Below are positions 7,255 to 27,231 of a DNA stretch of 35,899 nt, piece by piece. The position numbers and the translations under genes were made by a program. The notes beneath the pieces were generated by a model that was given only the letters and a program-made list of their open reading frames with translations, ran no database searches and was not told the origin of the DNA. Source of the DNA: Bacteroidota bacterium (GTDB lineage: Bacteria; Bacteroidota; Ignavibacteria; Palsa-1295); NCBI GenBank assembly GCA_030706385.1, contig JAUZOQ010000027.1, forward strand, positions 1 through 35,899, in the 5' to 3' direction. Every line of letters starts with the position of its first letter. The stretch's first letter is position 1.

Positions 7255-7728
7255 ATGCTGAACGAATTTAGTCACGTATTTGCATTTTTTCTTCTTGCAA
7301 TAATCTTTGTTGCCGGGGGGATTATTTCCAACTACTTCATTCGGCCGCACAAACCGAATGAACTGAAGCTCTCCATTTATGAATGCGGCGAAGATCCCAT
7401 CGGCTCAAGTTGGCTGAAATTCAATATTCGTTTTTATGTCGTCGCTCTGATCTTTATCTTATTCGACGTCGAAATAGTTTTTCTTTTTCCATGGGCTGTT
7501 GTCTATAAGCAAATGGGAGTATTGGCATTTGCTGAGATGCTGGTATTCCTGGCAGTGCTCATAGTGGGGTTTGCGTACGTATGGGTTAAGGGCGATCTTG
7601 ACTGGGTACGGCCGAAACCTTATATTGCCAAACTTGACGATCTTATTTCACGCGACAAACCACGCATCATTCCGAGGCCGGTGCCAACCATGGCTCAGCC
7701 GGTGCCGGAAGAAGTTGTCGCAGGGTAA
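7255..7728 (+). CDS. nuoA: Complex I (NADH-quinone oxidoreductase) subunit A
   Basis: NuoA is a small membrane subunit near the quinone site of complex I. The 157-residue product has the expected three membrane segments (about 7-27, 62-82 and 90-112). The conserved loop after the first helix includes YECGEDP with the family Cys, and GSSWLKFNIRFYVVAL; the second helix contains IFILFDVEIVFLFPW. The C-terminal tail is hydrophilic and Pro-rich, slightly longer than in E. coli. It is the first gene of an operon continuing through nuoN. No clear Shine-Dalgarno site precedes the ATG. Confidence 0.96.
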   Translation: MLNEFSHVFAFFLLAIIFVAGGIISNYFIRPHKPNELKLSIYECGEDPIGSSWLKFNIRFYVVALIFILFDVEIVFLFPWAVVYKQMGVLAFAEMLVFLAVLIVGFAYVWVKGDLDWVRPKPYIAKLDDLISRDKPRIIPRPVPTMAQPVPEEVVAG

Positions 7729-7769
7729 TTCGAATTCTTAATTTGTGGGGCGGAGATTCTGATCCGTCT

Positions 7770-7789
7770 GAGAAGGCAAATACCTTCTC
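7770..7789 (+). other. Stem-loop between nuoA and nuoB
   Basis: GAGAAGG and CCTTCTC form a 7-bp stem with a 6-nt loop in the 102-nt gap between nuoA and nuoB. No T-run follows, so it is not a standard terminator. It may affect mRNA processing or stability. Confidence 0.45.
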
Positions 7790-7830
7790 TCCGGCACATC
7801 ATGGCCGGTCTGCAGCAAATCTAAACCTAG

Positions 7831-8331
7831 ATGGGACTTTTAGACAAACAAGATAATCCGTTCGAATCGAGCAATATCGTAATTACCGGTGCCGATACAC
7901 TGCTAAACTGGGCACGTTTATCAAGCTTATGGATGATGGGCTTCGGTTTAGCCTGTTGCGCGATCGAGATGATGGCAGCTTCCGCATCTCACTATGATAT
8001 CGGTCGTTTCGGTGTCATCCCCCGTCCGAGCCCACGTCAATCCGACATCATGCTTATCTCGGGTACTGTCACTCTGAAAATGGCTACGCGCACGAAACTG
8101 TTGTATGAGCAGATGCCAGATCCAAAGTACATTATTTCCATGGGTTCGTGCTCGAACTGTGGCGGACCGTATTGGGAACACGGATACCATGTCTTGAAGG
8201 GCGTCGATCGTGTCATTCCTGTTGATGTGTATGTTCCCGGCTGCCCGCCTCGTCCGGAAGCACTCTTGGAAGGATTGATCAAGGTGCAGGAAAAAGTGCG
8301 GAAACAATCGCTCGGAAAAACAACTGTATGA
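7831..8331 (+). CDS. nuoB: Complex I subunit B (cluster N2 subunit)
   Basis: NuoB holds the terminal [4Fe-4S] cluster N2 that passes electrons to quinone. In the 166-residue protein the four expected ligands are visible: the vicinal pair in GLACCAIEM (C42, C43), the Cys of SMGSC (C107) and the Cys of [10 protein letters not shown] (C138). The motif [14 protein letters not shown] is also characteristic. The N-terminus is short, without the extension seen in some proteobacteria. The gene lies between two intercistronic hairpins, more separated from its neighbours than most genes of this operon. Confidence 0.97.
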
Positions 8332-8337
8332 TTTGAT

Positions 8338-8364
8338 GATAAGCCGACTTCTCGTCGGCTTATC
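8338..8364 (+). other. Strong stem-loop between nuoB and nuoC
   Basis: Arms GATAAGCCGAC and GTCGGCTTATC form a perfect 11-bp stem with a 5-nt loop, beginning seven bases after the nuoB stop. CGAATATGAC follows rather than a T-run, so intrinsic termination is unlikely. It fits an mRNA-stabilising or processing hairpin. Confidence 0.6.
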
Positions 8365-8398
8365 CGAATATGACTTGATGTAGTGCGAACGTAAGAAA

Positions 8399-8899
8399 AT
8401 GACGAATACAGAAATTTACGATAAGCTTAAGTCGGCATTCGGCCCGGTAATCGGCGAGTGGCATGAACAAACAGGAGGGGAGTATATGAAGCGCCTGTCT
8501 TCGTATGCTGATGTTGCCGATACCAGCTTCATTCGCGACGTCTGCCTCTATCTTCGCGACGAACCGGGACTCGAATTTGATAGCTTGCTTCTTCTTTCCT
8601 CGGTTGATAATGGCGACAAGACTCTCTCCGTGGCCTATCACCTGGAATCGAAAACCATGAGGCATTATATCGCATTAAAGGTTACAGTACCTCTTGATAA
8701 TGCGATCGTGCCATCGGTCACGGAAGTATGGAGTCATGCCAATTGGCAGGAGCGCGAAGCATGGGACATGATGGGAATCAAATTTCTTAATCATCCCGAT
8801 ATGCGCAGAATACTGCTTGACGACGACTGGGTCGGACACCCGCTACGCAAGGACTATGTCTATCCCGATTATTACAGAGGAATGAAAGTACCGTACTAG
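8399..8899 (+). CDS. nuoC: Complex I subunit C
   Basis: NuoC (30-kDa subunit homologue) is part of the peripheral arm, packing against NuoD. The 166-residue protein shows the family signature WQEREAWDMMGIKFLNHPD followed by RRILLDDDWVGHPLRKDY, ending a few residues after the conserved DYVYP. It is a separate gene and not fused to nuoD as in E. coli. It starts with ATG at 8399, 34 nt past the hairpin, without a clear Shine-Dalgarno site. Confidence 0.95.
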   Translation: MTNTEIYDKLKSAFGPVIGEWHEQTGGEYMKRLSSYADVADTSFIRDVCLYLRDEPGLEFDSLLLLSSVDNGDKTLSVAYHLESKTMRHYIALKVTVPLDNAIVPSVTEVWSHANWQEREAWDMMGIKFLNHPDMRRILLDDDWVGHPLRKDYVYPDYYRGMKVPY

Positions 8900-8957
8900 A
8901 ATTTATCGGGGAGATCATGGAGATTTCCACCCCGCACTGGAACGAGAAACGAAATTT

Positions 8958-10157
8958 ATGGAAGTACTAGAGAGAAAAATGCAAACGCTGCCGGTTCCTA
9001 CAAAGGTTATCCCGGCAGAACAGATCGATCCGAAGAGGCTCCGAACGGAGGAGATGGTACTGAATGTCGGACCTCAGCATCCATCGACTCATGGCGTACT
9101 TCGTCTCGAGGCAGTGCTTGACGGCGAGTTAGTCATTGACGTCGTTCCATTTCTTGGTTATCTGCATAGATGCTTTGAAAAGCATGCAGAGGCAATGACC
9201 TATCCTCAGGTTGTTCCCTACGTCGACAGGATGGATTATCTTGCTCCGATGAACGGCGAACTTGGGTATGCTCTGGCCGTCGAGCGGATGATGGGAATCG
9301 AAGTGCCGGAGAAAGTCGAATACATCCGTGTACTCTTTAATGAACTGCAGCGAATCGCTTCGCATCTTGTTGCCGTAGGCACATTTGGAATGGATGCCGG
9401 CGCGTTTACTCCCTTCCTCTATTGTTTCCGCGACCGTGAAGATGTTTTAGAGATCTTTGAAAAAACATGCGGCGCACGCCTGCTCTACAATTATATCTGG
9501 GTAGGTGGCCTTTCTCATGATTTGCATCCCGATGTTTTATCGATGTGCCGTGCCTTTGTAAAGAAGAGCCGCGCCACTCATAAGGAGATCAACGAACTGC
9601 TTACGTTCAATAAGATCTTTGTCGAACGCGTTGCGAATATTGGAATTCTGAAACCCGATGTTGCGATCAATGGCGGAGCTTCAGGGCCGATGCTTCGCGG
9701 ATCTGGAGTGAAATGGGATTTGCGGCGTGACGATCCGTATTCGATTTATGACCGTTTCGAATTTGAAGTCCCGGTTGGAACGGGGATGATGGGTACGCTC
9801 GGAGATTGTTTTGACAGGCATTGGGTGAGAATGTGCGAGTGGGAGCAATCGCTTAATATCATTGAGCAAGTGCTTGAAAAATTTCCGCAGAACGATAAGA
9901 CCGATGTTCAGAAGGCTGTGCCGAAACGCATCAAGCCTGCGGCTGGTGAAATCTATTCGCGCGTCGAGACAGCTCGTGGAGAACTTGGATACTATATTAT
10001 CTCCAAAGATAACATCAATCCATGGCGAGTCAAAGTGCGTTCTCCAGCTTTTGTGAACTTGAGCCTGCTTCCGATCATTTCGCGTGGCTACTTGATGGCC
10101 GATCTGATCGTCATTCTAGGCTCCGTGGATATTGTGCTCGGAGAAGTGGACAGGTAA
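8958..10157 (+). CDS. nuoD: Complex I subunit D (49-kDa homologue)
   Basis: NuoD forms the quinone-binding pocket together with NuoB and is descended from the large subunit of [NiFe] hydrogenases. The 399-residue protein carries NVGPQHPSTHGVLRL (with the quinone-site His), GYLHRCFEKHAE, YVDRMDYLAPMNGE, FGMDAGAFTPF, and the closing segment SRGYLMADLIVILGSVDIVLGEVDR that is typical of the family. The hydrogenase nickel ligands are absent, as expected. The 58-nt gap from nuoC holds no gene. The start at 8958 gives a roughly 37-residue N-terminal extension before the conserved core; the Met at codon 8 is a possible alternative. Confidence 0.97.
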   Translation: MEVLERKMQTLPVPTKVIPAEQIDPKRLRTEEMVLNVGPQHPSTHGVLRLEAVLDGELVIDVVPFLGYLHRCFEKHAEAMTYPQVVPYVDRMDYLAPMNGELGYALAVERMMGIEVPEKVEYIRVLFNELQRIASHLVAVGTFGMDAGAFTPFLYCFRDREDVLEIFEKTCGARLLYNYIWVGGLSHDLHPDVLSMCRAFVKKSRATHKEINELLTFNKIFVERVANIGILKPDVAINGGASGPMLRGSGVKWDLRRDDPYSIYDRFEFEVPVGTGMMGTLGDCFDRHWVRMCEWEQSLNIIEQVLEKFPQNDKTDVQKAVPKRIKPAAGEIYSRVETARGELGYYIISKDNINPWRVKVRSPAFVNLSLLPIISRGYLMADLIVILGSVDIVLGEVDR

Positions 10158-10181
10158 TCATTAGGATTAATCTATTACAGG

Positions 10182-11276
10182 ATGTTTCAAGACCTAAATC
10201 AATTTATCGTAAGTCTGATCGGCAAGGGCGACCTCTCTGATATCTTATCAGTAGTCGTGTATTCAGCATTACCGCTGGTCTTAATCCTACTCTATGCCCT
10301 CGTGGCGATTCTTGGAGAGATGAAGATTTCAGCTTGGCTTCAGGACCGATTGGGACCAATGCGAACGGGGCCTTATGGTATCCTTCAGCCCATAGCTGAC
10401 ATGTTGAAGCTCATCCAGAAGGAAGATACGACGCCAAAACTTGCCGATAAGAAGCTCTACAATGCAGCGCCGTTCATTGTTTTTATCGGAAGCTATATGG
10501 CGTTTGCAGCTCTTCCTTTTGCGGCGATGTATGCCGGTGCAAGGATTAACACAGGTATTTTTTATATCGTGGCTGTCAGTGGAGTGGTAGTCGTTGGAAT
10601 CTTGATGGCAGGGTGGGGATCGAACAATAAGTATGCGCTTCTCGGGTCGATGCGTTCAGTTGCCCAGATCGTCAGCTATGAGATTCCCGCCGGTCTGGCA
10701 ATATTATCAGTTGTAATGATAGCCGGAACAATGGATTTGCAGACGATCTCTCACTTGCAGCAAGGAGGATTACAGAACTGGTTCATATTCGGTGGTCCAA
10801 AATCACTTGCAGGATTCGGCGGCGGTTATGCCTGGATACTTACTCCGCTCATGGTTGTCTCCTTCCTGATCTATATCGTCGCATCGCTAGCGGAAACGAA
10901 TCGTGTTCCATTCGATATTCCGGAAGCTGAATCGGAACTTGTAGCAGGCTATCACACTGAATATTCTGCGATGAAATTCGCTCTGTTCTTTTTGGCTGAA
11001 TATGCTAATATGTTCGCCGTGAGTGCTATTGCTTCCGTGCTGTTTCTTGGCGGCTGGAATTCGCCGATTGCAGGATTTTTGGATGCTCCCTGGATGGGAG
11101 CGATCTGGTTTATCGGAAAGGCATTTAGTTTTGTTTTGATCCAAATTTGGATTCGCTGGACGCTTCCACGGTTGCGCGTAGATCAGTTAATGCATATTTG
11201 TTGGAAAGTGATGATCCCCTTCGGAATGGCAACAGTTCTTCTCGTCGGTACGATCGTGACGTTCCTAGCGCACTAA
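10182..11276 (+). CDS. nuoH: Complex I subunit H
   Basis: NuoH is the membrane subunit that joins the peripheral arm to the proton pumps and lines the quinone channel. The 364-residue protein has about eight membrane helices. Conserved pieces are [32 protein letters not shown] (split across the first cytoplasmic loop), [47 protein letters not shown] and the late [18 protein letters not shown]. All match the family closely. The following 71-aa gene starts directly after the stop codon, indicating tight co-translation. Confidence 0.97.
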
Positions 11277-11492
11277 ATGTGGAAACGTCGGCTTGTCTTT
11301 AACCTGATCTTTTTTATCGGTACGCTGATCGCCGGAATAGGCTGGCTCAGCGAACTGCGAGAATGGAATCTTCGGCTTGGCGATCTGGCGATTGCCGGAC
11401 ACGCAATCCAGATCGCAGGAATATTTGGAAATCTTCTGACGCCTGATGAAACAGGATTTGAAGAAGATCATAAGGAATTTGAAGACCAATAA
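11277..11492 (+). CDS. Small two-helix membrane protein inside the nuo operon (unknown)
   Basis: This 71-residue protein matches no complex I subunit I know. Its ATG follows the nuoH TAA with no gap, and its own TAA lies three bases before the nuoI ATG, so it is packed as tightly as the flanking subunits, which argues strongly for a real gene. It begins MWKRR, then has a hydrophobic helix (about 7-24, VFNLIFFIGTLIAGIGWL), a short loop with charged residues (SELREWNLRLGD), a second more moderate helix (about 36-53) and an acidic tail (EEDHKEFEDQ). The basic N-terminus and acidic C-terminus suggest a hairpin with both ends in the cytoplasm. It may be an accessory or assembly factor at the NuoH-NuoI interface; that is inference from position only. 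Confidence 0.8.
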   Translation: MWKRRLVFNLIFFIGTLIAGIGWLSELREWNLRLGDLAIAGHAIQIAGIFGNLLTPDETGFEEDHKEFEDQ

Positions 11493-11495
11493 CAC

Positions 11496-12173
11496 ATGAG
11501 CGGATATTTTAAGGATATACAAGAGGGAATCGGAACAGCATTCAAGGGAATGTCGATTGTCATGAAGCATCTTCTCAAGCCGAAGGTGACCAGGCAGTAT
11601 CCGAATCCCGAAGCTCGATTCCAGTTGCCGGAGCGCGCACGTAACAGGCTCTACGTCAATATGGATGATTGCATTGGCTGTGATCAGTGTGCGCGTGCTT
11701 GTCCGGTTAATTGTATTACTATTGATACTGCAAAGGCTATTGCAGGGGAAAACATCGGAACGACATCAAATGGGAAAAAGAAGTCTCTTTGGGTAACGCG
11801 CTTTGACATTGATATCGCAAAATGCTGTTACTGCGGACTCTGTGTATACCCTTGTCCAACAGAGTGTATCATCATGACGGACGTCTATGAGTTTTCGGAG
11901 TATGATCGTGTGAACCTCATCTATAACTACGCTACGATGGATGCGTCTGAGGCTGCCGAACATACGGAAAAAGCAAAAAAAGAGGATGAGCGACTTGCTG
12001 CCGAGCGAGCGAAACAAGCCGAGGAAAAGGCAAAAGCAGCAGCTGCGAATCCGCAGCCTGCCGCGCCGCCAGCTCCTGCGCCACAGGCGCCGCCTGCTGC
12101 CGGAGGCATAAAGCCCCCGCCGTTTGCTGCAAAACCCGGAGGGATCAAGCCGCCGCCCTTCAAAGCTGGATAA
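11496..12173 (+). CDS. nuoI: Complex I subunit I with unusual C-terminal tail
   Basis: NuoI carries two [4Fe-4S] clusters (N6a and N6b) that relay electrons to NuoB. Both ferredoxin motifs are intact: CIGCDQCARACP (C59, C62, C65, C69) and C110-x2-C113-x2-C116-x3-C120, read from CCYCGLCVYPCP. The core ends near residue 147. An extra tail of almost 80 residues follows: a charged Ala/Glu/Lys segment likely to form a helix or coiled coil (about 149-183), a Pro/Ala-rich linker (184-202), and two copies of a 12-residue unit beginning GGIKPPPF at 203 and 215. Family members are usually around 160-180 residues. The 3-nt gap from the 71-aa gene indicates coupling. Confidence 0.95.
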   Translation: MSGYFKDIQEGIGTAFKGMSIVMKHLLKPKVTRQYPNPEARFQLPERARNRLYVNMDDCIGCDQCARACPVNCITIDTAKAIAGENIGTTSNGKKKSLWVTRFDIDIAKCCYCGLCVYPCPTECIIMTDVYEFSEYDRVNLIYNYATMDASEAAEHTEKAKKEDERLAAERAKQAEEKAKAAAANPQPAAPPAPAPQAPPAAGGIKPPPFAAKPGGIKPPPFKAG

Positions 12174-12193
12174 CGTACATTTTCAAGATCAGA

Positions 12194-12862
12194 ATGTTTG
12201 ACATAATTTTCTATATTTTCGGTGCAATAACGGTAGGCGGTGCTTTGGTAACGGCATTCGCAAGGAATATCGTATATGCTGCATTTTCACTGCTGTTTAC
12301 TTTCTTTGGGATTGCCGGGCTCTATATTATGGCCAACGCAGACTTCCTGGCAGTCACTCAGCTACTAGTTTATGTCGGCGGTATCTTGATCCTTTTGATT
12401 TTCGGCGTTATGTTGACGAGCCGGATCGGTACAGTGGATATTCGCGTAGGCACAGGATCCCGGTGGGTTGCGGGAATTATGGCTTTAGGACTTTTTGCGA
12501 TCTTATGCGCTGCATTTTTTGGTACTGCTGCAACCCATACAGAAAAGTCGGCCGATGGCAAATCGCAGGTCGTGACTTCATGGGCAACGCATGCGACACG
12601 CCCGTGGTCGGGCAGCAAGTGGAATCAGGATGCGACGACGGAAGCGTTGAAGCCAAAATATGGAGCCCCCGATGAGGTGAAATCGAATGAAGGATCTTCG
12701 GGTACTTCGGTTGAGATCGGAACACTCTTTCTTACTGATTATCTGCTTCCCTTCGAAGTTATTTCAGTATTGATCTTAGTATCGCTTCTTGGTGCAACGA
12801 TGATCGCGCGCAAAGAACCGACGAAAGAAGAAGAAGCCATCGCTGAATCGGTATCAGTTTAA
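12194..12862 (+). CDS. nuoJ: Complex I subunit J with enlarged loop
   Basis: NuoJ is a membrane subunit whose third helix undergoes a pi-bulge transition during coupling. The 222-residue product has the typical N-terminal helices and the motif FLAVTQLLVYVGGILILLIFGVM, split here for length, then two further hydrophobic segments. Between the last two helices there is a hydrophilic insertion of about 60 residues (about 113-172), rich in Thr, Ser, Lys and Glu. The C-terminus returns to a membrane helix (LLPFEVISVLILVSLLGA) with a charged end. E. coli NuoJ has 184 residues, so the extra length is mostly this loop. Confidence 0.93.
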   Translation: MFDIIFYIFGAITVGGALVTAFARNIVYAAFSLLFTFFGIAGLYIMANADFLAVTQLLVYVGGILILLIFGVMLTSRIGTVDIRVGTGSRWVAGIMALGLFAILCAAFFGTAATHTEKSADGKSQVVTSWATHATRPWSGSKWNQDATTEALKPKYGAPDEVKSNEGSSGTSVEIGTLFLTDYLLPFEVISVLILVSLLGATMIARKEPTKEEEAIAESVSV

Positions 12863-12872
12863 TACATTTATT

Positions 12873-13181
12873 ATGACAGTCGGACTAAATCATTTTCTCG
12901 TTATTGGCGCAATTCTCTTTGTGCTTGGGATCTTTGCCATGCTTTCGAGAAGGAATGTTATTGCTGTTCTTATGGGAGTCGAGCTCATCTTAAATGCGGC
13001 AAACATTAATTTTATTGCTTTCACGCGTTACGGTGGCGTGAACATCGGCGGGCAGATGGCTGCCATCTTTGTTATTGTCATTGCTGCCGGTGAAGCAGCC
13101 GTGGCGCTTGCCATTGTACTGAATATCTACAAGAACTTCAAATCGGTTAATCCATCCGAAGTGGATTCGCTCAGAGACTAA
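12873..13181 (+). CDS. nuoK: Complex I subunit K
   Basis: NuoK is a three-helix subunit of the membrane arm related to MrpC/MnhC of antiporters. The 102-residue protein shows GVELILNAANINFIAF, with the conserved Glu in the second helix, and a third helix containing IVIAAGEAAVALAIVLNIYK with the second conserved Glu; both are needed for proton pumping in the family. Length and topology are standard. The gene starts ten bases after nuoJ and ends six bases before nuoL. Confidence 0.96.
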   Translation: MTVGLNHFLVIGAILFVLGIFAMLSRRNVIAVLMGVELILNAANINFIAFTRYGGVNIGGQMAAIFVIVIAAGEAAVALAIVLNIYKNFKSVNPSEVDSLRD

Positions 13182-13187
13182 CGCTCT

Positions 13188-15368
13188 ATGGATCAACTCT
13201 TATCGCTATCGCTCATCATACTCGGGCTTCCGCTGCTCTCGTTCGTGATTATCATTTTTAATCAGAAACGTTTGCAACAGAAAGCCCATCTTATCGGCAT
13301 ACCGATACTTGGCATCGCTCTTGCACTTGCCATCTATATCTGCTATTCCAAACTCTCCGGCATTCCGGCAACTATTAACTGGTCAACGAAATGGATCAGT
13401 TTTGGCAATGTGCCTGGTGTTGGTGAGTGGAATCTGATGACGGGGATCATGATCGATAATCTCACTGCGATCATGCTCGTCGTTGTAACCCTTATTTCTT
13501 TCCTTGTTCATCTGTTCAGCAGCAAGTACATGGAAGGGGATATTCGCTATGCTCGATATTTTGCCTATCTCGGTATCTTTACATTTTCGATGTTGGGAAT
13601 CGTCATCGGCAATAATCTTTTCGCTCTCTATATTTTCTGGGAGCTTGTCGGATTCTCAAGTTATGCATTGATCTCGCACTGGTATGAGAAGCCGGGTCCG
13701 CAGCTCGCATCGAAAAAAGCCTTTATTGTCAATCGTGTCGGTGATGTTGGAATGTGGACGGGATTGATGTTGGTATTCGGAACATTCCATACGTTCAACT
13801 TTACTGATATCTTTGCCGCCATTCAACATGGCTTGCCGCAGAGCTTCAGTTTATTGGGAATGAGCCCTGAAGCGACACTTACGGCGGCAGGCGTCTTGAT
13901 CTTCTGCGGAGCTGTCGGTAAGAGCGCACAATTTCCACTTCATGTCTGGCTTCCGGATGCTATGGAAGGCCCTACGCCGGTATCTGCACTTATCCATGCA
14001 GCAACGATGGTTGCCGCCGGTGTCTATTTAGTCTGCAGAATATTCCCGATGCTCACAGGCGATGCAATGCTCGTGATCGCAATGGTTGGCGGATTCACCA
14101 GCTTCCTCGCCGCTACGATCGCACTGACAGCGAACGATATCAAGAAAGTACTTGCCTATTCGACGGTCTCGCAGCTTGGATACATGATCATGGCTCTTGG
14201 AGTAGGCGCTTTCAGTGCCGGTTTCTTCCATTTGACGACTCATGCGATGTTCAAGGCCTGCCTCTTTCTGGGATCGGGTTCAGTCATTCATGCCATGCAT
14301 CATTCGCTCCACCATTTGCATGATCACCATACCGATCCGCAGGATATGCGCAACATGGGTGGATTGCTTAAGAAAATGCCGATTACCGGTTATACCTTTA
14401 TCATTGCTACGCTTGCCATCAGTGGAATTCCCTTGATGAGTGGGTTCATGTCGAAAGATGAGATTCTTGCCGGTGCAACAGCGTACAGTTCGTTGCAGGG
14501 GGGTATCGCATCGGTTCTTCCATGGATTGGGTTCGGAGTAGCCATGATGACTGCCTTTTACATGTGGCGCCAGGTCTTCATGACGTTTTTCGGAAAACCG
14601 AAGAAACCCGAGATCTACGAACACATTCACGAATCACCGAAGGCAATGATCATCCCGCTTGTCATTCTCGCAGGACTATCGTTCTGGATCTGGTACGGAG
14701 CAAATCCGATCGATCCGGCAGGTGGCTGGTTTATGAAGAATTGGGCGAAGACCCCTGCGCAGATCGTACCGGTCGCAACGGCCGCACATTTCGGAGAAAG
14801 TCATAAGGTTGAAACGGAAGCTCCGAAGGTCGAAGCTAACGGTGCAGTAGAAACACATGCGGCTGAACCTATGGAGCATCAGGAGATACTTGAGCATAAG
14901 ACCCATGAAGTCGCTGGCACCGGCATGTTGATCTCTATCTTCATGGCGATCACCGGTATCGCGCTTGCGTGGTTCCTGTATATGAAGAATACAGCTCTAC
15001 CCGATAAGATCGCTAAGACATTTGCTCCGCTCTATCGACTGAGCGTGAATAAATGGTACATCGATGAGTTTTATGAATTCGCCTTTGTCGGGTCGTTCAT
15101 GCTTTTTGCACGCATGTGCGCATGGTTCGATACAAATATTATCGATGGAATCGTCAATACTGTCGGAAAGTCTACGGTAGTTGTCTCCAAGATCGGTGGA
15201 TGGTTCGATAAGTATATCGTTGATGGGATTGTGAATTTGACTGCAGGAATCACTCAGATCATCGGCATGGGATTCCGCTCCGTACAGACCGGCAAGATCC
15301 AGACATACCTGGCATGGACTCTTGCAGGAGTCGTCATTGTGTTTGCTATTATCGCATGGAAACTATGA
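13188..15368 (+). CDS. nuoL: Complex I subunit L (proton pump)
   Basis: NuoL is the distal antiporter-like pump with a long lateral helix. The 726-residue protein, longer than E. coli NuoL (613), carries FWELVGFSSYALISHW with the key Glu, GKSAQFPLHVWLPDAMEGPTP (split), ALIHAATMVAAGVYLV, and the conserved Lys-bearing region LAYSTVSQLGYMIMALG. The His-rich segment near HHLHDHHTDPQDMRNMGGL precedes LLKKMP. A His/Glu-rich hydrophilic loop (about residues 531-577) is inserted before the penultimate part, and the C-terminal lateral-helix region holds a near-duplicate WFD-x2-[IV]-x-DGIVN unit. The stop codon overlaps the next ATG by four bases. Confidence 0.96.
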   Translation: MDQLLSLSLIILGLPLLSFVIIIFNQKRLQQKAHLIGIPILGIALALAIYICYSKLSGIPATINWSTKWISFGNVPGVGEWNLMTGIMIDNLTAIMLVVVTLISFLVHLFSSKYMEGDIRYARYFAYLGIFTFSMLGIVIGNNLFALYIFWELVGFSSYALISHWYEKPGPQLASKKAFIVNRVGDVGMWTGLMLVFGTFHTFNFTDIFAAIQHGLPQSFSLLGMSPEATLTAAGVLIFCGAVGKSAQFPLHVWLPDAMEGPTPVSALIHAATMVAAGVYLVCRIFPMLTGDAMLVIAMVGGFTSFLAATIALTANDIKKVLAYSTVSQLGYMIMALGVGAFSAGFFHLTTHAMFKACLFLGSGSVIHAMHHSLHHLHDHHTDPQDMRNMGGLLKKMPITGYTFIIATLAISGIPLMSGFMSKDEILAGATAYSSLQGGIASVLPWIGFGVAMMTAFYMWRQVFMTFFGKPKKPEIYEHIHESPKAMIIPLVILAGLSFWIWYGANPIDPAGGWFMKNWAKTPAQIVPVATAAHFGESHKVETEAPKVEANGAVETHAAEPMEHQEILEHKTHEVAGTGMLISIFMAITGIALAWFLYMKNTALPDKIAKTFAPLYRLSVNKWYIDEFYEFAFVGSFMLFARMCAWFDTNIIDGIVNTVGKSTVVVSKIGGWFDKYIVDGIVNLTAGITQIIGMGFRSVQTGKIQTYLAWTLAGVVIVFAIIAWKL
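15123..15239 (+). repeat. Imperfect internal duplication in nuoL
   Basis: TGGTTCGATA occurs at 15123 and at 15201, 78 nt (26 codons) apart. Each copy opens a 12-residue unit (WFDTNIIDGIVN and WFDKYIVDGIVN, 9 of 12 identical). The units fall in the C-terminal lateral-helix region of NuoL. Codon choice differs between copies, so this is an old duplication or convergent motif, not a recent one. Confidence 0.6.
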
Positions 15369-17401
15369 GATCGAAGAACATTATATTCGTATTTGTGCTG
15401 GCATTAGCCGCTACCCTTGGCGGCCATCGTTCCATTCTTGCTCAGGCTCCGCTTTCTGTTGATGCGCCGAAAGTAATGGATGTCGTTCCGGGCGTCGTAT
15501 ACATTAATTTGAAGGCTAACCGAGGACTCGATCTGGCGAATATCAGTCCGACTCACACTGGCAACGCAGATTTGGACAATCTTTTTGCTCGCATAGGAGT
15601 AACGGAAGTTGTTCCCTTCTGTAGGGATCTGAAGGAAAATGCCGTCATTGATTATCATGGTTACGATGGAATTTTCGTAATTACCTTTTCTGCCGAAGGC
15701 CGCTCTCCTCGAGATATTGCGCATGACTTCCTGAAACTTGACGTCGTAAGTGGAGCGAGCCCTCGTTACAATTTTCAAAAGTGTTATACACCCAACGATC
15801 CCAGCATTACGACTGCATACGCGTTAAACAACAGTCACATGCATGTACTGGATGCTTGGGGAGTGTCAAAAGGCAATGCAAATATTATCATCGCCGATCT
15901 CGACGAAGGTGTCAATTATAATCACGAAGATCTCACAGCCAATATCTATAAACTAGGAAATTATTTTGGACGCGATATCGTCGGCGATAGCGGAACATCT
16001 CAGAAGTTCAAACCTGATAACGATCCGATGCCTGGTTTAGGCCAAAGCCATGGAACATTCACCACAGGTTGTTTTGGCGCAGTTGCCGATAATGGCAAAG
16101 GTGCAGCAGGCTCCGGATTCAACTGTAAGATCATGGCGATCAAGATCGCCGATAATGCAGGAAATCTCTTAGGTGGATATGAAGGAATAGCCTACGCATG
16201 GATGCATGGCGCGAAGATCCTCAATTGCTCATGGGGAGGATATGAGACCGATCCTTCACTCATCGATTTCTTTCAAACGTTCATCGATTCAGCAGTGGCC
16301 AATGGTGCCCTTATTGTCGCTGCTGCAGGCAATGATGCGCGGAACATCGATCAAGGTGGCAGCCATTTTATTCCAGCCTATCTGAAGAACGTCCTCACCG
16401 TTGGGGCGTCAGACATTAATGACCTGCCCGCAAGCTTCACAAATTTCGGAAAATCAGTTGACGTATACGCTCCTGGAGCAAACATTTTTTCCACGACTTT
16501 CCCTGGTAATAGCGCCTACGACCAGTCAAGCGGTACTTCGTTTGCGTGTCCTCTGACTTCCGGTGTGGCGGGATTGGTTTGGGCAAAGAATCCTACCTGG
16601 CTTCCCAAATTTGTAATGAGGCAGATCATTGAAACCTGTGATAATGTACTTCAACAATCCAGCCGAACAAATTACTGGGGTCGCGTGAATGCCTATAGTG
16701 CTCTCACGAAACCGACTATTGCAGGCTTAGGAATTACCGATTACAAGATCGATGGTGTCGATAAAGGAAGCTTGAATTACACGAATAAGGTCTATTCCAT
16801 CGATGTGAGTTTTAAGAATTACATGTTCGCCGGTTCCGGTATTCAGGCAAAGTTGTTGCCGATCGATGGGACGGTTTCCGATTATGGCGGCTATAAGGTT
16901 CAAGCAGGCACAGCCGCGTTGGGCTCCATAAGCGCGCAGCAGGAAGTCATAGGCTCCTTCAAGTTTAGCCGTGATGGAACCGATGGCGGAATGGGAGCGC
17001 AGCTTCCACTCTTCTTTGCAATTTCCTATGGTACTTCAGGATCGGGAAGTAAGTACTTTGATACTCTCGTCGTTTTCCTCGATATCAGTGGTGATAATAT
17101 CTTTGTGACTCAGGGAGTTTCAGAATCGGACGCCAAACTTGTCCGCCTTGAGCAGAATTTCCCGAATCCCGTTTCCGGTGAGGGCACGATCAGTTTCGAA
17201 CTTGCAGAGCAAGGTTATGCCAGGCTCTCTCTCACGGATATGCTTGGCAGAGAGAATCGAGTGCTTTCCGAAGGCATGCTCTCGGCAGGTACTCACAACG
17301 TTCAGTTCGACGCCCGTACTTTGGAAAATGGTGTGTATATGTACACCTTGGAGACCTTGGGCGGAGCAGTTGCTACGAAGCGGCTCGTCGTTATTCATTA
17401 A
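15365..17401 (+). CDS. Subtilisin-like S8 protease with T9SS sorting tail
   Basis: This is a secreted serine endopeptidase of family S8. From ATG 15365 the protein has 678 residues: a signal peptide (MRSKNIIFVFVLALAATLGG, ending near SILAQA), a propeptide-like region (about 30-160), the catalytic domain, and a C-terminal domain. The triad is intact: D180 in ADLDEGVN, H229 in SHGTFTTG and S392 in SGTSFACP, with the oxyanion Asn N323 in AAAGND. The end (about 593-678: LEQNFPNPVSG, LTDMLGRE, NGVYMYTL, KRLVV) is a T9SS type A sorting domain, so it is probably exported across the outer membrane. The ATG overlaps the nuoL stop (ATGA), and nuoM follows 30 nt later. An upstream in-frame start at 15314 would spoil the signal peptide. 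Its place inside a nuo operon is highly unusual. Confidence 0.93.
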   Translation: MRSKNIIFVFVLALAATLGGHRSILAQAPLSVDAPKVMDVVPGVVYINLKANRGLDLANISPTHTGNADLDNLFARIGVTEVVPFCRDLKENAVIDYHGYDGIFVITFSAEGRSPRDIAHDFLKLDVVSGASPRYNFQKCYTPNDPSITTAYALNNSHMHVLDAWGVSKGNANIIIADLDEGVNYNHEDLTANIYKLGNYFGRDIVGDSGTSQKFKPDNDPMPGLGQSHGTFTTGCFGAVADNGKGAAGSGFNCKIMAIKIADNAGNLLGGYEGIAYAWMHGAKILNCSWGGYETDPSLIDFFQTFIDSAVANGALIVAAAGNDARNIDQGGSHFIPAYLKNVLTVGASDINDLPASFTNFGKSVDVYAPGANIFSTTFPGNSAYDQSSGTSFACPLTSGVAGLVWAKNPTWLPKFVMRQIIETCDNVLQQSSRTNYWGRVNAYSALTKPTIAGLGITDYKIDGVDKGSLNYTNKVYSIDVSFKNYMFAGSGIQAKLLPIDGTVSDYGGYKVQAGTAALGSISAQQEVIGSFKFSRDGTDGGMGAQLPLFFAISYGTSGSGSKYFDTLVVFLDISGDNIFVTQGVSESDAKLVRLEQNFPNPVSGEGTISFELAEQGYARLSLTDMLGRENRVLSEGMLSAGTHNVQFDARTLENGVYMYTLETLGGAVATKRLVVIH

Positions 17402-17431
17402 TCGATTTTTAAACGCAAAAGAAACATACTT

Positions 17432-19030
17432 ATGCTTGGCTTTCCGATCTTATCGATACTAACGCTCCTGCCCATTGCGGGAATGATCATCACGGCATTT
17501 GTGCCGAAGACGAATGTAAAAATGATTCGCGGTATTACCGTGGGGGTTACAGCCCTTCAAGTCATTTTTGCAATTGTTTTATGGGCAAATTTCAACGGGT
17601 CGATGGCCGGGATCAACGATCCGAAGGGATTCCAATTCGTCGAAAAGCACGAATGGATTCGTATCTCCGGCCTTGGTGTCTTCGGAAATGTAGCCATTGA
17701 TTATTTCATGGGAATTGACGGACTCTCCGTTCTCATGGTACTACTTACTGCGCTGATCTCATTCGTTGGAGCAATAGCAAGCTTCTCAATTGAGAAACAG
17801 CATAAAGGATACTTCCTCATGTATCTGCTCTTGGTAACGGGCATGATGGGTGTATTCTGCGCTTTGGACTTCTTCCTCTTCTATGTGTTTTGGGAGTTGA
17901 TGCTGTTGCCGATGTACTTCCTGATCGGTATTTGGGGAGGTCCGCGCCGCGAGTATGCTGCGATCAAGTTCTTCATCTACACACTTTTCGGATCCGTCTT
18001 CATGCTCTTAGTGATGATCGGATTGTATTTCACGACTCAGGTTCAGATCGGAGGAGTATCCTGGCATACCTTCAGCATCCTCGATATGATGAATCCGGCC
18101 AATCATGTTACGGGTTCGATCTTTGCAACGATCGGTAATACCTGGCGATACGTGGGATATCTCGGACTCTTTTTGGGCTTTGCCATTAAGATACCGATGT
18201 TTCCGTTTCATACCTGGCTTCCGGATGCTCACGTTGAGGCGCCGACAGCAATATCCGTCATTCTTGCCGGCGTTCTTCTGAAAATGGGTACCTATGGCAT
18301 TCTGCGGATCTGCTATGGTATTTTCCCTGAGATCGCTGTTGCCACAAGCCAATACATGGTGATCTTCGGAGTCATCAATATCGTCTATGGTGCATTCTGC
18401 GCAATGGCACAGAAGGATCTGAAGAAACTGATAGCCTACAGTTCTATCAGCCATATGGGATACGTCATGCTTGGCATGGCAGCATTGAACTCGCAGGGTA
18501 TGATGGGAGCAATATTTCAAATGTTCAACCACGGTACGATCACGGCGATGCTTTTCTTAAGTGTCGGTGTTCTTTATGACCGCGCACATACCAGAGGATT
18601 GAACGAGTTCGGCGGACTGGCGAACAAGATGCCGAAGTATTTCGCACTGGTCGTCATCTGCTACTTCGCATCGCTCGGCCTTCCGGGCATGTCGGGATTC
18701 ATCTCCGAGGCATTCGTATTTCTCGGTGCGTTCCAGACTTTCCAGTTCTGGACTATCGTCTCGACGCTTGGAATTATCCTGACGGCGGCGTATATGCTTT
18801 GGGCGTTGCAGAGAATGTTCCTTGGCACCTTGCCCGAGCGTTGGAATAATCTCACCGATATTAACGGACGCGAGCTCGTTGCTCTTGTTCCGCTGGCGGC
18901 AATCGTGATCTTCCTGGGTATCTATCCGGCACCGATCATAAATCTTATGTCAACGAGCGTCAATCAACTCGTTACCTTTGTCAATGCTGCAGGACCGAAG
19001 GTGATGCAAGCCGCCTCGATCGTACGATAA
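17432..19030 (+). CDS. nuoM: Complex I subunit M (proton pump)
   Basis: NuoM is the second antiporter-like pump. The 532-residue protein has about 14 membrane helices with FYVFWELMLLPMYFLIGIWGG (split; contains the essential Glu), GFAIKIPMFPFHTWLPDAHVEAPT (split), SVILAGVLLKMGTYGILR, LKKLIAYSSISHMGYVMLG and ALGLPGMSGF-like SLGLPGMSGFISE. The ORF begins 30 nt after the protease stop, so it stays in the same transcription unit. Length is close to other NuoM proteins (about 500-530). Confidence 0.96.
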   Translation: MLGFPILSILTLLPIAGMIITAFVPKTNVKMIRGITVGVTALQVIFAIVLWANFNGSMAGINDPKGFQFVEKHEWIRISGLGVFGNVAIDYFMGIDGLSVLMVLLTALISFVGAIASFSIEKQHKGYFLMYLLLVTGMMGVFCALDFFLFYVFWELMLLPMYFLIGIWGGPRREYAAIKFFIYTLFGSVFMLLVMIGLYFTTQVQIGGVSWHTFSILDMMNPANHVTGSIFATIGNTWRYVGYLGLFLGFAIKIPMFPFHTWLPDAHVEAPTAISVILAGVLLKMGTYGILRICYGIFPEIAVATSQYMVIFGVINIVYGAFCAMAQKDLKKLIAYSSISHMGYVMLGMAALNSQGMMGAIFQMFNHGTITAMLFLSVGVLYDRAHTRGLNEFGGLANKMPKYFALVVICYFASLGLPGMSGFISEAFVFLGAFQTFQFWTIVSTLGIILTAAYMLWALQRMFLGTLPERWNNLTDINGRELVALVPLAAIVIFLGIYPAPIINLMSTSVNQLVTFVNAAGPKVMQAASIVR

Positions 19031-19089: not shown

Positions 19090-20808
19090 ATGAATCCAAA
19101 TATTATTAATCCGCAAGAACTGGCGAAGCTTTTCGCTCCGCTCGTGAAGACCAGTATGTCGCATTTCCTGCCGGAGACTATTCTCACGGTTGGTTTTCTG
19201 CTTGCTATCATACTTGATCTTTTGATCAAGAAGTCGAGCCAGAAAAAACTTACCGGTTACTTTGCACTTATCGTTCTTGCTGCAGCATTTGTGACTTCAT
19301 GGATGCAATGGCAGCCGTATGTAGAAGGAAGCACTACATGGAAAGGCGGCTCCATGATCTTCCCGTATATGACGACCCTTATTCCGCAAATCGGCATGGC
19401 TGTAGTCGATAATTTTGCAGTCTTTTTCAAGTTGTTGATCTCCTTGTCTGCGATGCTGATCGTACTCATGTCGATGCTCTCGCGTGAAGTCGAAGAGCGG
19501 GGAAGACATAATGGAGAATACTTCGCATTGCTTCTGGCCCTTACACTGGGCATGTTCCTAATGCCTGCGGCAACGGATCTGGTGATGATGTATATATCAC
19601 TTGAACTCGTTTCGATCACGAGCTACATCATGGTTGGCTTCATGAAAGAGAACTCGCGGAGTTCGGAAGCCTCGATGAAATACGTTCTCTTTGGCGCATT
19701 CAGCTCCGGCTTGATGATCTATGGATTTTCGATTCTCTATGGGCTAACCGGAACAACGAGCATTGTTGGCATTCAGGCGGTACTTCAGTCGGGTATGGAA
19801 GCCCATACTGTTAATCAATTAGCTCTTTGGGTAGGCGTCATTCTCTCCTTGGCCGGCATGGGCTATAAGATCAGCGCTGCGCCATTTCATTTCTGGACGC
19901 CTGACGTTTATGAGGGTGCTCCGATTCCGATCACAGCCTTGCTTTCTGTTGCCTCGAAAGCCGGCGGGTTTGGTCTCTTGATGAGATTTCTGATGTTCGG
20001 CTTTCCTGTTGATTTTCAGACCGGAAAATTACTGCTTAACTGGCCGCTCGTCGTTGCCGTACTTGCTGCAGTCACGATGACTCTCGGAAATTTTGCTGCG
20101 CTCCGCCAATCGAACATCAAGCGAATGCTTGCCTACTCGACGATCGCTCACGCTGGTTATATGATGGTTGGTCTCGTTGCCGTCGGAAGCGGTCTATTCA
20201 TGCTTGCCGAAGTGCGATCGGTAGGGTTTCATAAGGAGTTGTTGCCACATTTCTATGAAATGAGCGGAATGGTCTCCGTTATGATCTATCTTGTAGCTTA
20301 TCTATTTACGAATTTGGGAGCATTCTACGTCATTATGCTGATCGCCAATAAGATCGGCTCCGAAGAGATCGAGGATTACAAGGGATTCGCAAAGAAGTCT
20401 CCGCTCTTGGCTGTCAGCCTCGGAATATTCTTAGTATCACTGACAGGAATTCCGCTTACTGTCGGCTTCATTGGGAAATTGTATATATTCTCTTCCATTC
20501 TGACTGCAGATCCGATAACGCATGCCACGCCATGGGTCTGGCTTGCCGTTGTCATGGTGCTGAACTCGGTGGTTTCGTTGTACTACTACGTTCGAGTCAT
20601 GCAGGCGATGTTCATCAAGCAGGCGGATGCGCAGACCGCGCCGCTGACAAGCGCTCTCTCTGTGGGGCCTGATGGTACGTTGAGTTATTCACTGATCTCG
20701 AAGATCTTCATCTTTGCTTTCCTGGTCCCCACGATCGTGCTCGGCGTTTATTTTCAACCCGTCGTGGATTTCACAAGCAATGTGGTGCGCTTCTTCTCAT
20801 TACAATAA
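19090..20808 (+). CDS. nuoN: Complex I subunit N (proton pump)
   Basis: NuoN is the third antiporter-like pump, adjoining NuoK. The 572-residue protein is longer than E. coli NuoN (485). Motifs include MMYISLELVSITSYIMVGF with the key Glu, GMGYKISAAPFHFWTPDVYEGAP (split), SVASKAGGFGLLMRF, IKRMLAYSTIAHAGYMMVGL and SLTGIPLTVGFIGK. Extra length comes from the N-terminus, a hydrophilic stretch after the YMMVGL helix (near residues 375-395), and a polar insert before the last helix. The 59-nt gap from nuoM contains no gene. The rhodanese gene follows after nine bases. Confidence 0.96.
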   Translation: MNPNIINPQELAKLFAPLVKTSMSHFLPETILTVGFLLAIILDLLIKKSSQKKLTGYFALIVLAAAFVTSWMQWQPYVEGSTTWKGGSMIFPYMTTLIPQIGMAVVDNFAVFFKLLISLSAMLIVLMSMLSREVEERGRHNGEYFALLLALTLGMFLMPAATDLVMMYISLELVSITSYIMVGFMKENSRSSEASMKYVLFGAFSSGLMIYGFSILYGLTGTTSIVGIQAVLQSGMEAHTVNQLALWVGVILSLAGMGYKISAAPFHFWTPDVYEGAPIPITALLSVASKAGGFGLLMRFLMFGFPVDFQTGKLLLNWPLVVAVLAAVTMTLGNFAALRQSNIKRMLAYSTIAHAGYMMVGLVAVGSGLFMLAEVRSVGFHKELLPHFYEMSGMVSVMIYLVAYLFTNLGAFYVIMLIANKIGSEEIEDYKGFAKKSPLLAVSLGIFLVSLTGIPLTVGFIGKLYIFSSILTADPITHATPWVWLAVVMVLNSVVSLYYYVRVMQAMFIKQADAQTAPLTSALSVGPDGTLSYSLISKIFIFAFLVPTIVLGVYFQPVVDFTSNVVRFFSLQ

Positions 20809-20817
20809 AGGATCCAT

Positions 20818-21138
20818 GTGACTCCGTTCGAAATCAGTGTTGAGGAGTTGAAGGCGTTACTTGAAGAAAAGCAACCGGTCCAATTAATCGATTGCCGAGA
20901 AGAAGACGAATACGCGATCTGCAATATCGGCGGCACACTGATTCCGATGCAGGAGATGCCACGACATTTGGATGACTTTGATCCCGATAAGCCTCTTGTT
21001 ATCATGTGTCATATCGGCGCGCGTAGTTCTATGGTTGCCGAATACCTGAGGCGAAATGGATATCCCAATGCCCAGAGCCTCCGCGGCGGAATTCACGCCT
21101 GGAGCCAGAGGATCGATCCCAAGATCAAAATATACTAA
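20818..21138 (+). CDS. Single-domain rhodanese (sulfurtransferase)
   Basis: Rhodanese domains carry a persulfide on an active-site Cys and move sulfur to acceptors. This 106-residue protein is a single domain with IDCREEDEY near the N-terminus, the active loop CHIGARSS (C64) and the closing motif LRGGIHAWS. The start is GTG at 20818, supported by AAAGGA (20807-20812); the ATG two bases earlier runs straight into TGA. It is the last gene of the nuo transcription unit and may support Fe-S cluster supply, but that role is inferred from position. Its stop overlaps the stop of the convergent DoxX gene by two bases. Confidence 0.92.
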   Translation: MTPFEISVEELKALLEEKQPVQLIDCREEDEYAICNIGGTLIPMQEMPRHLDDFDPDKPLVIMCHIGARSSMVAEYLRRNGYPNAQSLRGGIHAWSQRIDPKIKIY

Positions 21139-21755: not shown

Positions 21756-22289
21756 TTGGCACAAGAAGAGAAAAATTCCATATTTGCAATTAAGATCGTG
21801 CCCCATCTGGATGCGGCCTACAATCTTGCGCGCGGGCTTGCCAGGAATGAGCAGGATGCCGAAGATATCGTCCAGGACGCATTCATTCGCGCATATTCTT
21901 ACCTCGATTCGTTTTCCGGGAAGGACGGTAAGACTTGGCTGCTTGCTATCGTGCGCAACACATTCTATTCCTGGCGGGAGAGAAAACAAGTGCGTCAAAA
22001 GGTCGAAGTAAGTGATCGGACACTTGACGATCTATTCATTTCCGATTCATCCCGTACTCCGGAAGCAGTATTCGAGTCAAAGGACACGCAAGAGGAAGTT
22101 CATAAGGCATTGAATTCTCTTCCGGTCGAGTTCCGCGAAACGTTGATCCTTTGGGAGATCGAGTCGATGTCCTATAAGGAGATTGCAAGCATTACCGGTG
22201 TGCCGATGGGCACAGTGATGTCGCGACTGGCCAGAGGTAGGGAAATGCTTCGCACACTGCTGAATAATCGTTGGAAGGGTAATGTCTAA
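21756..22289 (+). CDS. ECF-type RNA polymerase sigma factor
   Basis: This 177-residue protein is a group IV (ECF, RpoE-like) sigma factor. Region 2 is seen in NEQDAEDIVQDAFIRAY and WLLAIVRNTFYSWRERK; region 4 in LPVEFRETLILWEIE and MSYKEIASITGVPMGTVMSR, the helix-turn-helix that reads the -35 element. The only usable start is TTG at 21756; no in-frame ATG or GTG lies between it and region 2, and no clear Shine-Dalgarno site is present. The downstream gene overlaps by eight bases and encodes the matching anti-sigma factor. Autoregulation from the upstream spacer is likely but not shown. Confidence 0.93.
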   Translation: MAQEEKNSIFAIKIVPHLDAAYNLARGLARNEQDAEDIVQDAFIRAYSYLDSFSGKDGKTWLLAIVRNTFYSWRERKQVRQKVEVSDRTLDDLFISDSSRTPEAVFESKDTQEEVHKALNSLPVEFRETLILWEIESMSYKEIASITGVPMGTVMSRLARGREMLRTLLNNRWKGNV

Positions 22290-23037
22290 GATGCAATCAC
22301 AAGATATCCATGCGCTTCTGCACCCGTATTTTGATGGGGAATTGGCTTATTCGGACTCCATTCTTTTTGAAGAGCATCTTGAGAACTGCCCTGATTGTTC
22401 CCTCGCCTTAGCCGAGCAACAAGAGCTTCGTATGCTGATGGAAGGGCCCGGATTACGGTATCCTGCTCCAGCAAAACTCAGACATAATATCTACTCGTCT
22501 TATGCGAGAAATCAGCAATCCTCAAGAATACTAATCCATTGGAACTGGAAGATTTATGGAATCGCCGCAAGCATTGCGATTGCACTCCTCGGCTTCTGGA
22601 TTGTCCTGGCACCCGGTTCACCCTCTGCTGAATCTTCGGAAGCCAGGGAAATTGTCTCAGGCCATCTACGATCCTTGATGGCAACACATCTTTTTGACGT
22701 TGCTTCGACCGACCAGCATACGGTCAAACCGTGGTTTACTGGAAGGGTTGATTTTTCACCCGTTGTTAAAGATCTGTCGGACCGGGGATTCCAATTGCTC
22801 GGCGGACGATTGGATTACATTGCCGGTAGACCTGCTGCGGCCTTGGTCTATCAATACCGCAAACATACGATCAATGTTTTCGAGTGGAATACCGGAGTGG
22901 TGAACCCTCAGGGAGAGGAAAAGAGTACGATGAAGGGCTTTAATCTCGTCGCGGAATGGATCGGTCCGATCAAGGTATGGATAGTTAGCGATCTCAATAC
23001 CGAAGAGCTCGATATCCTCGCGAATGCATTACGATAG
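22282..23037 (+). CDS. Membrane anti-sigma factor with zinc-finger (ZAS) domain
   Basis: The 251-residue protein should hold the preceding sigma factor inactive at the inner membrane. The N-terminal domain shows LHPYFDGEL and H32-x3-C36-x2-C39, the zinc-binding anti-sigma pattern. One membrane segment follows (about residues 88-108, IYGIAASIAIALLGFWIVL). The periplasmic part contains HLRSLMATHLFDVAS, HTVKPWFTGRVDFSP, LLGGRLDYIAGRPAAALVYQYR and HTINVFEW, a module known in proteobacterial RsiW-like regulators. ATG 22282 overlaps the end of the sigma gene; Met4 at 22291 is an alternative. Its stop directly abuts the stop of the convergent hydrolase gene. Confidence 0.9.
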   Translation: MSKMQSQDIHALLHPYFDGELAYSDSILFEEHLENCPDCSLALAEQQELRMLMEGPGLRYPAPAKLRHNIYSSYARNQQSSRILIHWNWKIYGIAASIAIALLGFWIVLAPGSPSAESSEAREIVSGHLRSLMATHLFDVASTDQHTVKPWFTGRVDFSPVVKDLSDRGFQLLGGRLDYIAGRPAAALVYQYRKHTINVFEWNTGVVNPQGEEKSTMKGFNLVAEWIGPIKVWIVSDLNTEELDILANALR

Positions 23038-25037: not shown

Positions 25038-26657
25038 ATGAAAACACTTTTTGGGAGGCTATCGGTTCGGGATAGGTATTGCAAGGGATTGGTCTATGCC
25101 ATTTTTGTCCTTTTTTCTTCCGTGCTGCTCGAAACCGAGCTGCTTGCACAACCACAAACCGCGCCGATCCAATCGAAGTCACCCCAGGAACTTGAGGCCA
25201 TACAAAAACTGCAACACGGAATAGAGGCCGATGTCAATGACCCGCGGTTTGCTCACTCCTTTGTCGGAATAGAAATCAAATCAGTAAAGACCGGAGAATC
25301 GCTTTTTCACCAGAATGAAGGCAAGAACTTCCTTCCCGCATCCAATCTAAAACTCTTTACTACGGCGACAGCGCTTGGACTTTTAGGCACCGATTATCGG
25401 TACACGACGCAACTTGTTACCGATGGAGAGATTCATCGAAGTGTCCTGAAAGGGAATCTGATCATCCGCGGAAGCGGTGATCCGACACTTGGCTCGCCCT
25501 CGATGTATCCGGACAAGGACCCTGGTTCTGTATTCAATGCGTGGGCAGATTCTCTCGAACGGATGGGTATAGAAAAGATCGATGGCTCGATCATCTGTGA
25601 TCCGGATTGTTTCACAGATGAAGCCTACCCTGAAGGTTGGGCAGTCGAAGATATGCCTTTCTACTTTGCTACGGTTTCAAGCGGTCTTTCGTTTGCCGAT
25701 AATGCCGTCGGTGTTTCCGTTACTCCAGGTTTGCACAGCGGTTCGAAAGCACTGTACGAAACTTCGCCGGAAACTGACTATTTTTCAGTTGATAATACAG
25801 CCACGACGCATGAACCGAAAGTAGCCGATCGTTCCAAAGGTAAAGATTCTTCGAACACGACAGCCTATCTTCCGACAAACTCGATAAAGGTGACTCGCAG
25901 CTCTGGCGAAAATACCATAAGCATAACCGGTACTATAGATCGGGGTTCGCCGGGCGTTCACGAACAATTATCGGTTGAGAATCCCTCGATGTATGCCGCT
26001 ACGGTCTTCCGAGAAATACTTGAATACCGAGGCTTCACCATTACCGGAGGGACAATGGCGGCTTCAGAACTCGACGATAAGGTTGACTACTCAGAGGCGC
26101 AGACACTTGCGCGGTCTATTAGTCCGCCGATGAGCGAGATCGTGAAAGTTTTGAATAAGAAATCCCAGAATTTCTATTCCGAACAACTCATCCGAACGAT
26201 CGGCAAGGAAATAATGGGAAAAGGGAATTGGGAATCCGGGATCACTGCCGAAAAAAGATATCTCTCTTTTCTTGGCCTTGATGTTGATCGAATTGCTTTG
26301 CACGATGGATCGGGGCTATCGCGAATGGACCTGGTATCGCCGCAGGATGTTGTGATGCTGCTTCGTTCAGTTCAGCGCCAGCCGAAGATCTTTCCGGCTT
26401 TTGACTCCTCGCTTCCAGTCATGGGTGTTGATGGAACGCTCTCAGAGCGGCTTAAGGGAAGCGGCGCAATGAACAACGTCCACGCCAAGACAGGATTCTT
26501 AACAGGCATTCGCTGCCTGAGCGGCTACGTTCGGACGAAAGATGATGAGATGCTTGCCTTTAGTTTTATGGTCAATAATTACACGATACCGACGAAGGAG
26601 ATCAACGAACTTCAAGATCAGCTTATCCTTCTGCTGGTCAATTTTTCCAGGAAATAA
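25038..26657 (+). CDS. dacB: D-alanyl-D-alanine carboxypeptidase/endopeptidase, PBP4 type (S13)
   Basis: S13 enzymes trim or cut peptidoglycan cross-links in the periplasm. The 539-residue protein has an N-terminal hydrophobic export segment (about 18-36) ending near LLAQP. The three active-site motifs are present: S102-x2-K105 in PASNLKLF, S376-x-N378 in KKSQNFYSE and K484-T-G in HAKTGFLTG. GNLIIRGSGDPTL is another family hallmark. Between the first two motifs lies the usual domain insertion. The stop codon shares a base with the ATG of the next gene. A TATCTTTC sequence (25029-25036) sits two bases before the ATG. Confidence 0.93.
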   Translation: MKTLFGRLSVRDRYCKGLVYAIFVLFSSVLLETELLAQPQTAPIQSKSPQELEAIQKLQHGIEADVNDPRFAHSFVGIEIKSVKTGESLFHQNEGKNFLPASNLKLFTTATALGLLGTDYRYTTQLVTDGEIHRSVLKGNLIIRGSGDPTLGSPSMYPDKDPGSVFNAWADSLERMGIEKIDGSIICDPDCFTDEAYPEGWAVEDMPFYFATVSSGLSFADNAVGVSVTPGLHSGSKALYETSPETDYFSVDNTATTHEPKVADRSKGKDSSNTTAYLPTNSIKVTRSSGENTISITGTIDRGSPGVHEQLSVENPSMYAATVFREILEYRGFTITGGTMAASELDDKVDYSEAQTLARSISPPMSEIVKVLNKKSQNFYSEQLIRTIGKEIMGKGNWESGITAEKRYLSFLGLDVDRIALHDGSGLSRMDLVSPQDVVMLLRSVQRQPKIFPAFDSSLPVMGVDGTLSERLKGSGAMNNVHAKTGFLTGIRCLSGYVRTKDDEMLAFSFMVNNYTIPTKEINELQDQLILLLVNFSRK

Positions 26658-27136: not shown

Positions 27137-27220
27137 TTAGGGCGTTCGTGTCATGAAAATCGGTTGCCTAGGGCTAACCCGGCATGCTACATCGCTGAAA
27201 CAATCCTTATATGACGGCAG

Positions 27221-27228
27221 TATATTTG
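27221..27228 (+). promoter_or_regulatory. Candidate -7 element at the M16 peptidase gene
   Basis: TATATTTG matches TAnnTTTG exactly and ends three bases before ATG 27232. CTG (27195-27197) is a weak -33 candidate at 23 nt. If active, the mRNA would begin at about the ATG, which would also settle the start in favour of 27232 over 27211. Confidence 0.3.
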
Positions 27229-27231
27229 TCT

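Follow-up and report, generated by a model that had tools for sequence, protein, structure and literature searches.

In the class Ignavibacteria the genes of complex I keep a strongly conserved order, which is almost never interrupted among about 100 operons of the class. The window analyzed here, a stretch of 35,899 nucleotides, raises the question of why a gene for a subtilisin-like protease with features of a secreted protein should lie between nuoL and nuoM. A first reading of the sequence alone offered two answers: an insertion tolerated without disturbing expression, or export of the protease deliberately tied to respiratory gene expression. The account that we favor, with a probability of roughly 0.6, is that a subtilase bearing a type IX secretion system (T9SS) sorting tail was captured once at the nuoL/nuoM junction in the ancestor of the window's family and inherited there. 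It would be transcribed with the nuo genes and exported, and would be kept because its supply scales with respiratory growth, without any direct role in complex I.

The protease and its operon

The operon of the window has the order nuoA-B-C-D-H-I-J-K-L-[S8]-M-N, with 11 subunit genes on one strand between positions 7255 and 20808 (Table 1). nuoE, nuoF and nuoG were not found in this interval; two NuoF-like genes are located on other contigs of the genome, both scoring below the family cut-off. The rhodanese-domain gene adjoins nuoN also in other genera of the family (L064, L066-L070). Downstream of the operon, an ECF-type sigma factor gene stands beside a zf-HC2 putative zinc finger gene, possibly encoding an anti-sigma factor (21756-23037), and genes for an S13 D-Ala-D-Ala carboxypeptidase, a GNAT acetyltransferase and two consecutive M16 peptidases are clustered at 25038-29957.

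Table 1. Positions of the complex I genes, the protease gene and its parts in the window
Feature	Position	Strand	Basis
nuoA, B, C, D, H, I, J, K (upstream part of operon)	7255..13181	+	Pfam
nuoL	13188..15368	+	Proton_antipo_M, Proton_antipo_N
Overlap of protease start and nuoL stop (ATGA, 4 nt)	15365..15368	+	sequence
S8 subtilase gene with T9SS sorting tail, 678 aa	15365..17401	+	sequence, profile matches, fold search
Predicted signal peptide, about residues 1-28, without lipobox	15365..15448	+	read from sequence, inferred
Probable propeptide, about residues 40-135, alternating strands and helices	15482..15769	+	predicted secondary structure; ortholog L040
Peptidase_S8 catalytic domain, residues 173-427; D180, H229, N323, S392	15881..16645	+	Pfam
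Por_Secre_tail, T9SS type A sorting domain, residues 599-676	17159..17392	+	Pfam and NCBIfam
Spacer protease-nuoM, 30 nt, without terminator-like site	17402..17431	+	sequence
nuoM	17432..19030	+	Proton_antipo_M
nuoN	19090..20808	+	Proton_antipo_M
Rhodanese-domain gene 3' of nuoN	20818..21138	+	domain match

The protease reading frame is complete (678 codons). The catalytic domain matches Peptidase_S8 (PF00082) with an E-value of 7e-43, and the Asp, His and Ser residues lie in the DLDEG, SHGT and SGTSFA motifs of family S8, with N323 as the oxyanion residue. The C-terminal sorting domain characteristic of T9SS type A cargo scored above the curated cut-offs of both PF18962 (31.3 bits, cut-off 27) and TIGR04183 (31.8 bits, cut-off 23). 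The open reading frame and the profile matches thus confirm the initial description of a complete S8 gene with an intact triad (D180, H229, S392) and a T9SS tail between the two nuo genes. Besides the catalytic domain and the tail, the protein contains beta-rich modules; in ortholog L040 a Peptidase_S8_N match was found, which fell below its own cut-off. A pseudogene was ruled out by the open frames and retained catalytic residues, and recent foreign DNA by the GC content (0.477 as compared with 0.45-0.51 in the neighboring genes) and the presence of orthologs in other families of the class.

The best PDB sequence match is thermitase (E 2e-30), accompanied by related secreted subtilases. The structure model had low to modest confidence (mean pLDDT 59), represented the catalytic core poorly and served for the broad fold only; a fold search with it retrieved secreted subtilases, among them thermitase, deseasin and the multi-domain fervidolysin. 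The window protease has the catalytic domain and the D/H/N/S residues in common with thermitase, deseasin MCP-01 and fervidolysin, but differs from them by the T9SS tail and by the location of its gene inside a complex I operon, and the orthologs of genus g3 carry an additional BNR/sortilin-like region.

Components of the T9SS are encoded in the same genome as the protease: a profile search detected SprA and three PorV-family proteins above cut-off. Within this genome the protease query gave about 110 matches, mostly to the sorting tail alone. Judging from the signal peptide, propeptide, active site and tail, the protein would leave the cell through Sec and then the type IX system, and would act degradatively at or beyond the cell surface. 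Most likely it is a scavenging enzyme, putatively made from the nuo operon and exported. In its PF18962/TIGR04183 tail, signal peptide and accompanying T9SS components it resembles the T9SS type A cargo proteases of Bacteroidota. T9SS cargo genes are usually scattered in genomes; in contrast, this one has a fixed place, conserved among relatives, inside a core respiratory operon.

The nuoL/nuoM junction in the family and in the class

The window's family is designated here f1; its named members were deposited as Candidatus Kapaibacterium sp. or as Bacteroidetes or Ignavibacteriae metagenome-assembled genomes (MAGs). A comparison of the junction in relatives had been suggested, with absence from all close relatives as the outcome that would speak against a conserved arrangement. 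An orthologous T9SS subtilase was found at the junction in 11 of the 12 readable f1 genomes, representing four genera (G000, G001, G002, G003, G005, G006, G007, G008, G009, G010 and G012), which excludes a one-off insertion and, through its recurrence, places the arrangement beyond chance. The catalytic D/H/N/S residues are kept in every f1 copy covering the site, and all scanned copies with a C-terminus matched the sorting tail, that of G010 below cut-off. The junction region is divided by a contig break in G001 and G007, each piece carrying the expected neighbor, and in G005 the contig covers the nuoM side alone. G004, a genome 67% complete in which neither a standard NuoL nor a standard NuoM was found, stands outside the count of 12.

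Because the nameable genomes are MAGs, and the contig breaks in G001 and G007 fall inside or beside the gene, an assembly or binning artefact was considered. It is extremely improbable: the genomes with a linked protease come from different studies, and the same junction recurs in many independent assemblies, on contigs of 1.8 Mb (G002), 296 kb (G003) and 226 kb (G008).

The sole readable exception in f1 is G011. Its nuoL and nuoM share a contig and are separated by a spacer of just 135 nt (L043:1769-1903), which lacks the protease gene and contains a short ORF bearing no resemblance to it. Since this genome retains nuoL and nuoM and has no linked copy, the linkage of the protease to the nuo genes is not obligatory and is dispensable in G011.

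nuoL and nuoM coordinates were paired in 121 class genomes. The gap between the two genes was 2067-3477 nt in 7 of 7 contiguous f1 genomes, and a corrected gap above about 610 nt was seen in none of the 114 non-f1 class genomes with contiguous nuoL-nuoM; the two largest non-f1 gaps (G108, G157) hold only small ORFs unlike the protease. Likewise, no nuoL-nuoM insert longer than 600 nt was present in 100 non-f1 operons read directly, a set overlapping the 114. When relatives of the protease were sought in GTDB species genomes, only the f1 members among the best 80 had nuo neighbors, and nuo neighbors were absent from all phylum-level relatives examined with 1.5-kb flanks.

Descent and transcription of the protease gene

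The f1 proteases form one clade (support 100/99; SH-aLRT 100 in a wider tree), whose sister sequences, from families f14, f15, f19 and f24, are proteases of the same kind that are not adjacent to nuo. In S8 trees built from longer alignments genera g1, g2 and g5 group together as in the NuoM tree, with weak support; a conflict in the tree of the catalytic domain only, which placed g1 with g3 and not with g2 and g5, disappeared with the longer alignment. Genus g3 has a second, unlinked copy (G003, G007, G008, G009 and G011, at L032, L037, L039, L041 and L044, with an upstream neighbor common to L041 and L044), and these copies group with the linked g3 copies. In G011 the unlinked paralog is the only copy kept. 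Taking into account that the NuoM tree nests G011 inside g3, its lack of a linked copy is most simply explained by loss. An AU test did not reject a topology in which all linked copies form one clade apart from the g3 paralog B (p 0.26). The simplest account of these trees would be one capture in the f1 ancestor, vertical descent, one duplication to an unlinked site in g3 and one loss. In other words, a T9SS subtilase already present in the class would have moved once into the junction and been inherited there ever since. As history, the originally proposed insertion without disturbance of expression is plausible.

Orthologous proteases share about 35-65% identity, as opposed to about 66-94% for NuoM, and this much faster divergence, which counts against the favored account, suggests that the substrate of the protease may not be constant. 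In the two g3 protease pairs for which an estimate was obtained, dN/dS was 0.09 and 0.15 at high dS, values indicating apparent purifying selection; between G000 and G001 dS was saturated and the ratio unusable.

The sequence-only reading had also described a protease ATG overlapping the nuoL stop and nuoM starting 30 nt after the protease stop, which the coordinates bear out, and had read this as translational coupling. The overlap is ATGA in the window's species (G000) and TAATG in its congener G001, so coupling is possible in this genus. The overlap is, however, limited to g1: in the other genera about 6-41 nt separate the nuoL stop from the protease start, which rules out coupling as a conserved property outside g1. 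Promoter- and terminator-like sites were only slightly more frequent in the region than in shuffled sequence (17 versus 12.5 and 12 versus 8.1, respectively), and the protease-nuoM spacer of the window is too short for a promoter. The spacer is longer in some g3 genomes (G008, G009) and may contain an internal promoter there. Given the overlap or short spacers, the shortness of the window's protease-nuoM spacer and the near-shuffled level of promoter- and terminator-like sites, the conserved feature is likely to be co-transcription of the protease with the nuo genes, not coupling.

Retention of the gene and other genes embedded in nuo operons

The nuo operons of the class rarely contain inserts: apart from those of f1 and the family f2 (see below), only three of about 100 class operons had any. 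Between nuoC and nuoD, G172 (f26) carries a lipoprotein-like gene of the beta-propeller (PQQ-like) type together with a gene for a T9SS-tailed protein (L144:5737-8190). Between nuoI and nuoJ, G179 (f22) carries genes for a T9SS-tailed protein of 887 aa and for a small outer-membrane beta-barrel (L182:8539-11841). In G047 (f16) HEPN-like and nucleotidyltransferase-like genes, by eye a toxin-antitoxin-like pair, lie between nuoK and nuoL (L163:7791-9001). Within f1, some g3 genomes carry further variable genes at nuoH-nuoI.

What has kept the protease gene in place can be considered against this background. In the favored account the protease would be read from the nuo transcript, and selection would act on a protease supply scaling with respiratory growth, retention being helped by the risk to nuoM of removing or moving the gene. 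The main rival is that the gene landed once, harmlessly, and has stayed because its excision would damage nuoL or nuoM; the protease would then be useful and its link to respiration meaningless. This we consider possible, though clearly less probable than selection for supply. It is favored by the clean loss of the linked copy in G011, which kept nuoL, nuoM and the unlinked paralog, by the sporadic unrelated inserts in G047, G172 and G179 and by the differences in overlap and spacers between genera. On the other hand, the very rarity of such inserts argues against it, as does the fact that the gene has stayed put in g1, g2 and g5 even though relatives in the class carry the protease unlinked. 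As for the originally suggested tie to the expression of respiratory genes, a putative link is favored by the long retention and by the missing promoter room before nuoM in the window, and the loss in G011 shows that it is not obligatory. Altogether, the long family-wide placement suggests that production of the protease is tied to production of the respiratory chain.

Three points make a direct role of the protease in complex I unlikely: its sequence signals target it to the outside, its orthologs in other families do not adjoin nuo, and G011 does without a linked copy. The specific idea that the enzyme acts on complex I or its assembly, for example by trimming periplasmic loops of NuoL and NuoM, could draw on the position of the gene between two membrane-arm subunits only and on the passage of the protein through the periplasm during export. 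Nevertheless, with a signal peptide and T9SS tail directing it outside, orthologs in other families unlinked to nuo, a nuo operon without a linked copy in G011 and rapid divergence as compared with the conserved NuoL and NuoM, this idea has very little probability.

Complex I operons with accessory genes exist, e.g. in Rhodothermus marinus, and the f1 operon resembles them in having a non-subunit gene within the nuo order. It differs in that the f1 gene encodes a putative exported degradative enzyme and not an energy- or cofactor-related protein. No earlier description of a protease within nuoL-nuoM was found in the literature searched, which lay mostly outside the subscription journals. The components are each known; what is new is that a T9SS protease occupies the nuoL-nuoM junction on a family-wide scale. 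The fixed protease offers a testable case either of an exported degradative enzyme under respiratory control or of an operon capturing and entrenching a passenger.

In family f2 an insert of about 2 kb was found at nuoK/nuoL in 9 of the 9 genomes examined (L048, L146-L151, L155 and L225). Where the sequence is unmasked, its product is an OmpA-family outer-membrane protein with TSP3 repeats, as judged from domain matches for G041 and G013 and by eye for the other copies, some of which are masked with N. Embedding of envelope genes in nuo operons thus recurs in the class, and two inserts are fixed at the family scale. Genes for exported and envelope proteins feature prominently among those embedded, the events being too few for a firm claim of enrichment. 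According to a broader proposal, complex I operons of the class repeatedly take up genes encoding surface and secreted proteins, which are then kept at the family scale because surface export, dependent on the proton-motive force in the case of the T9SS, and building of the respiratory chain must rise and fall together. This proposal is speculative and in our view rather doubtful. As a second family-wide case, the OmpA-type insert of f2 allows the ideas of respiratory control and of passenger entrenchment to be compared.
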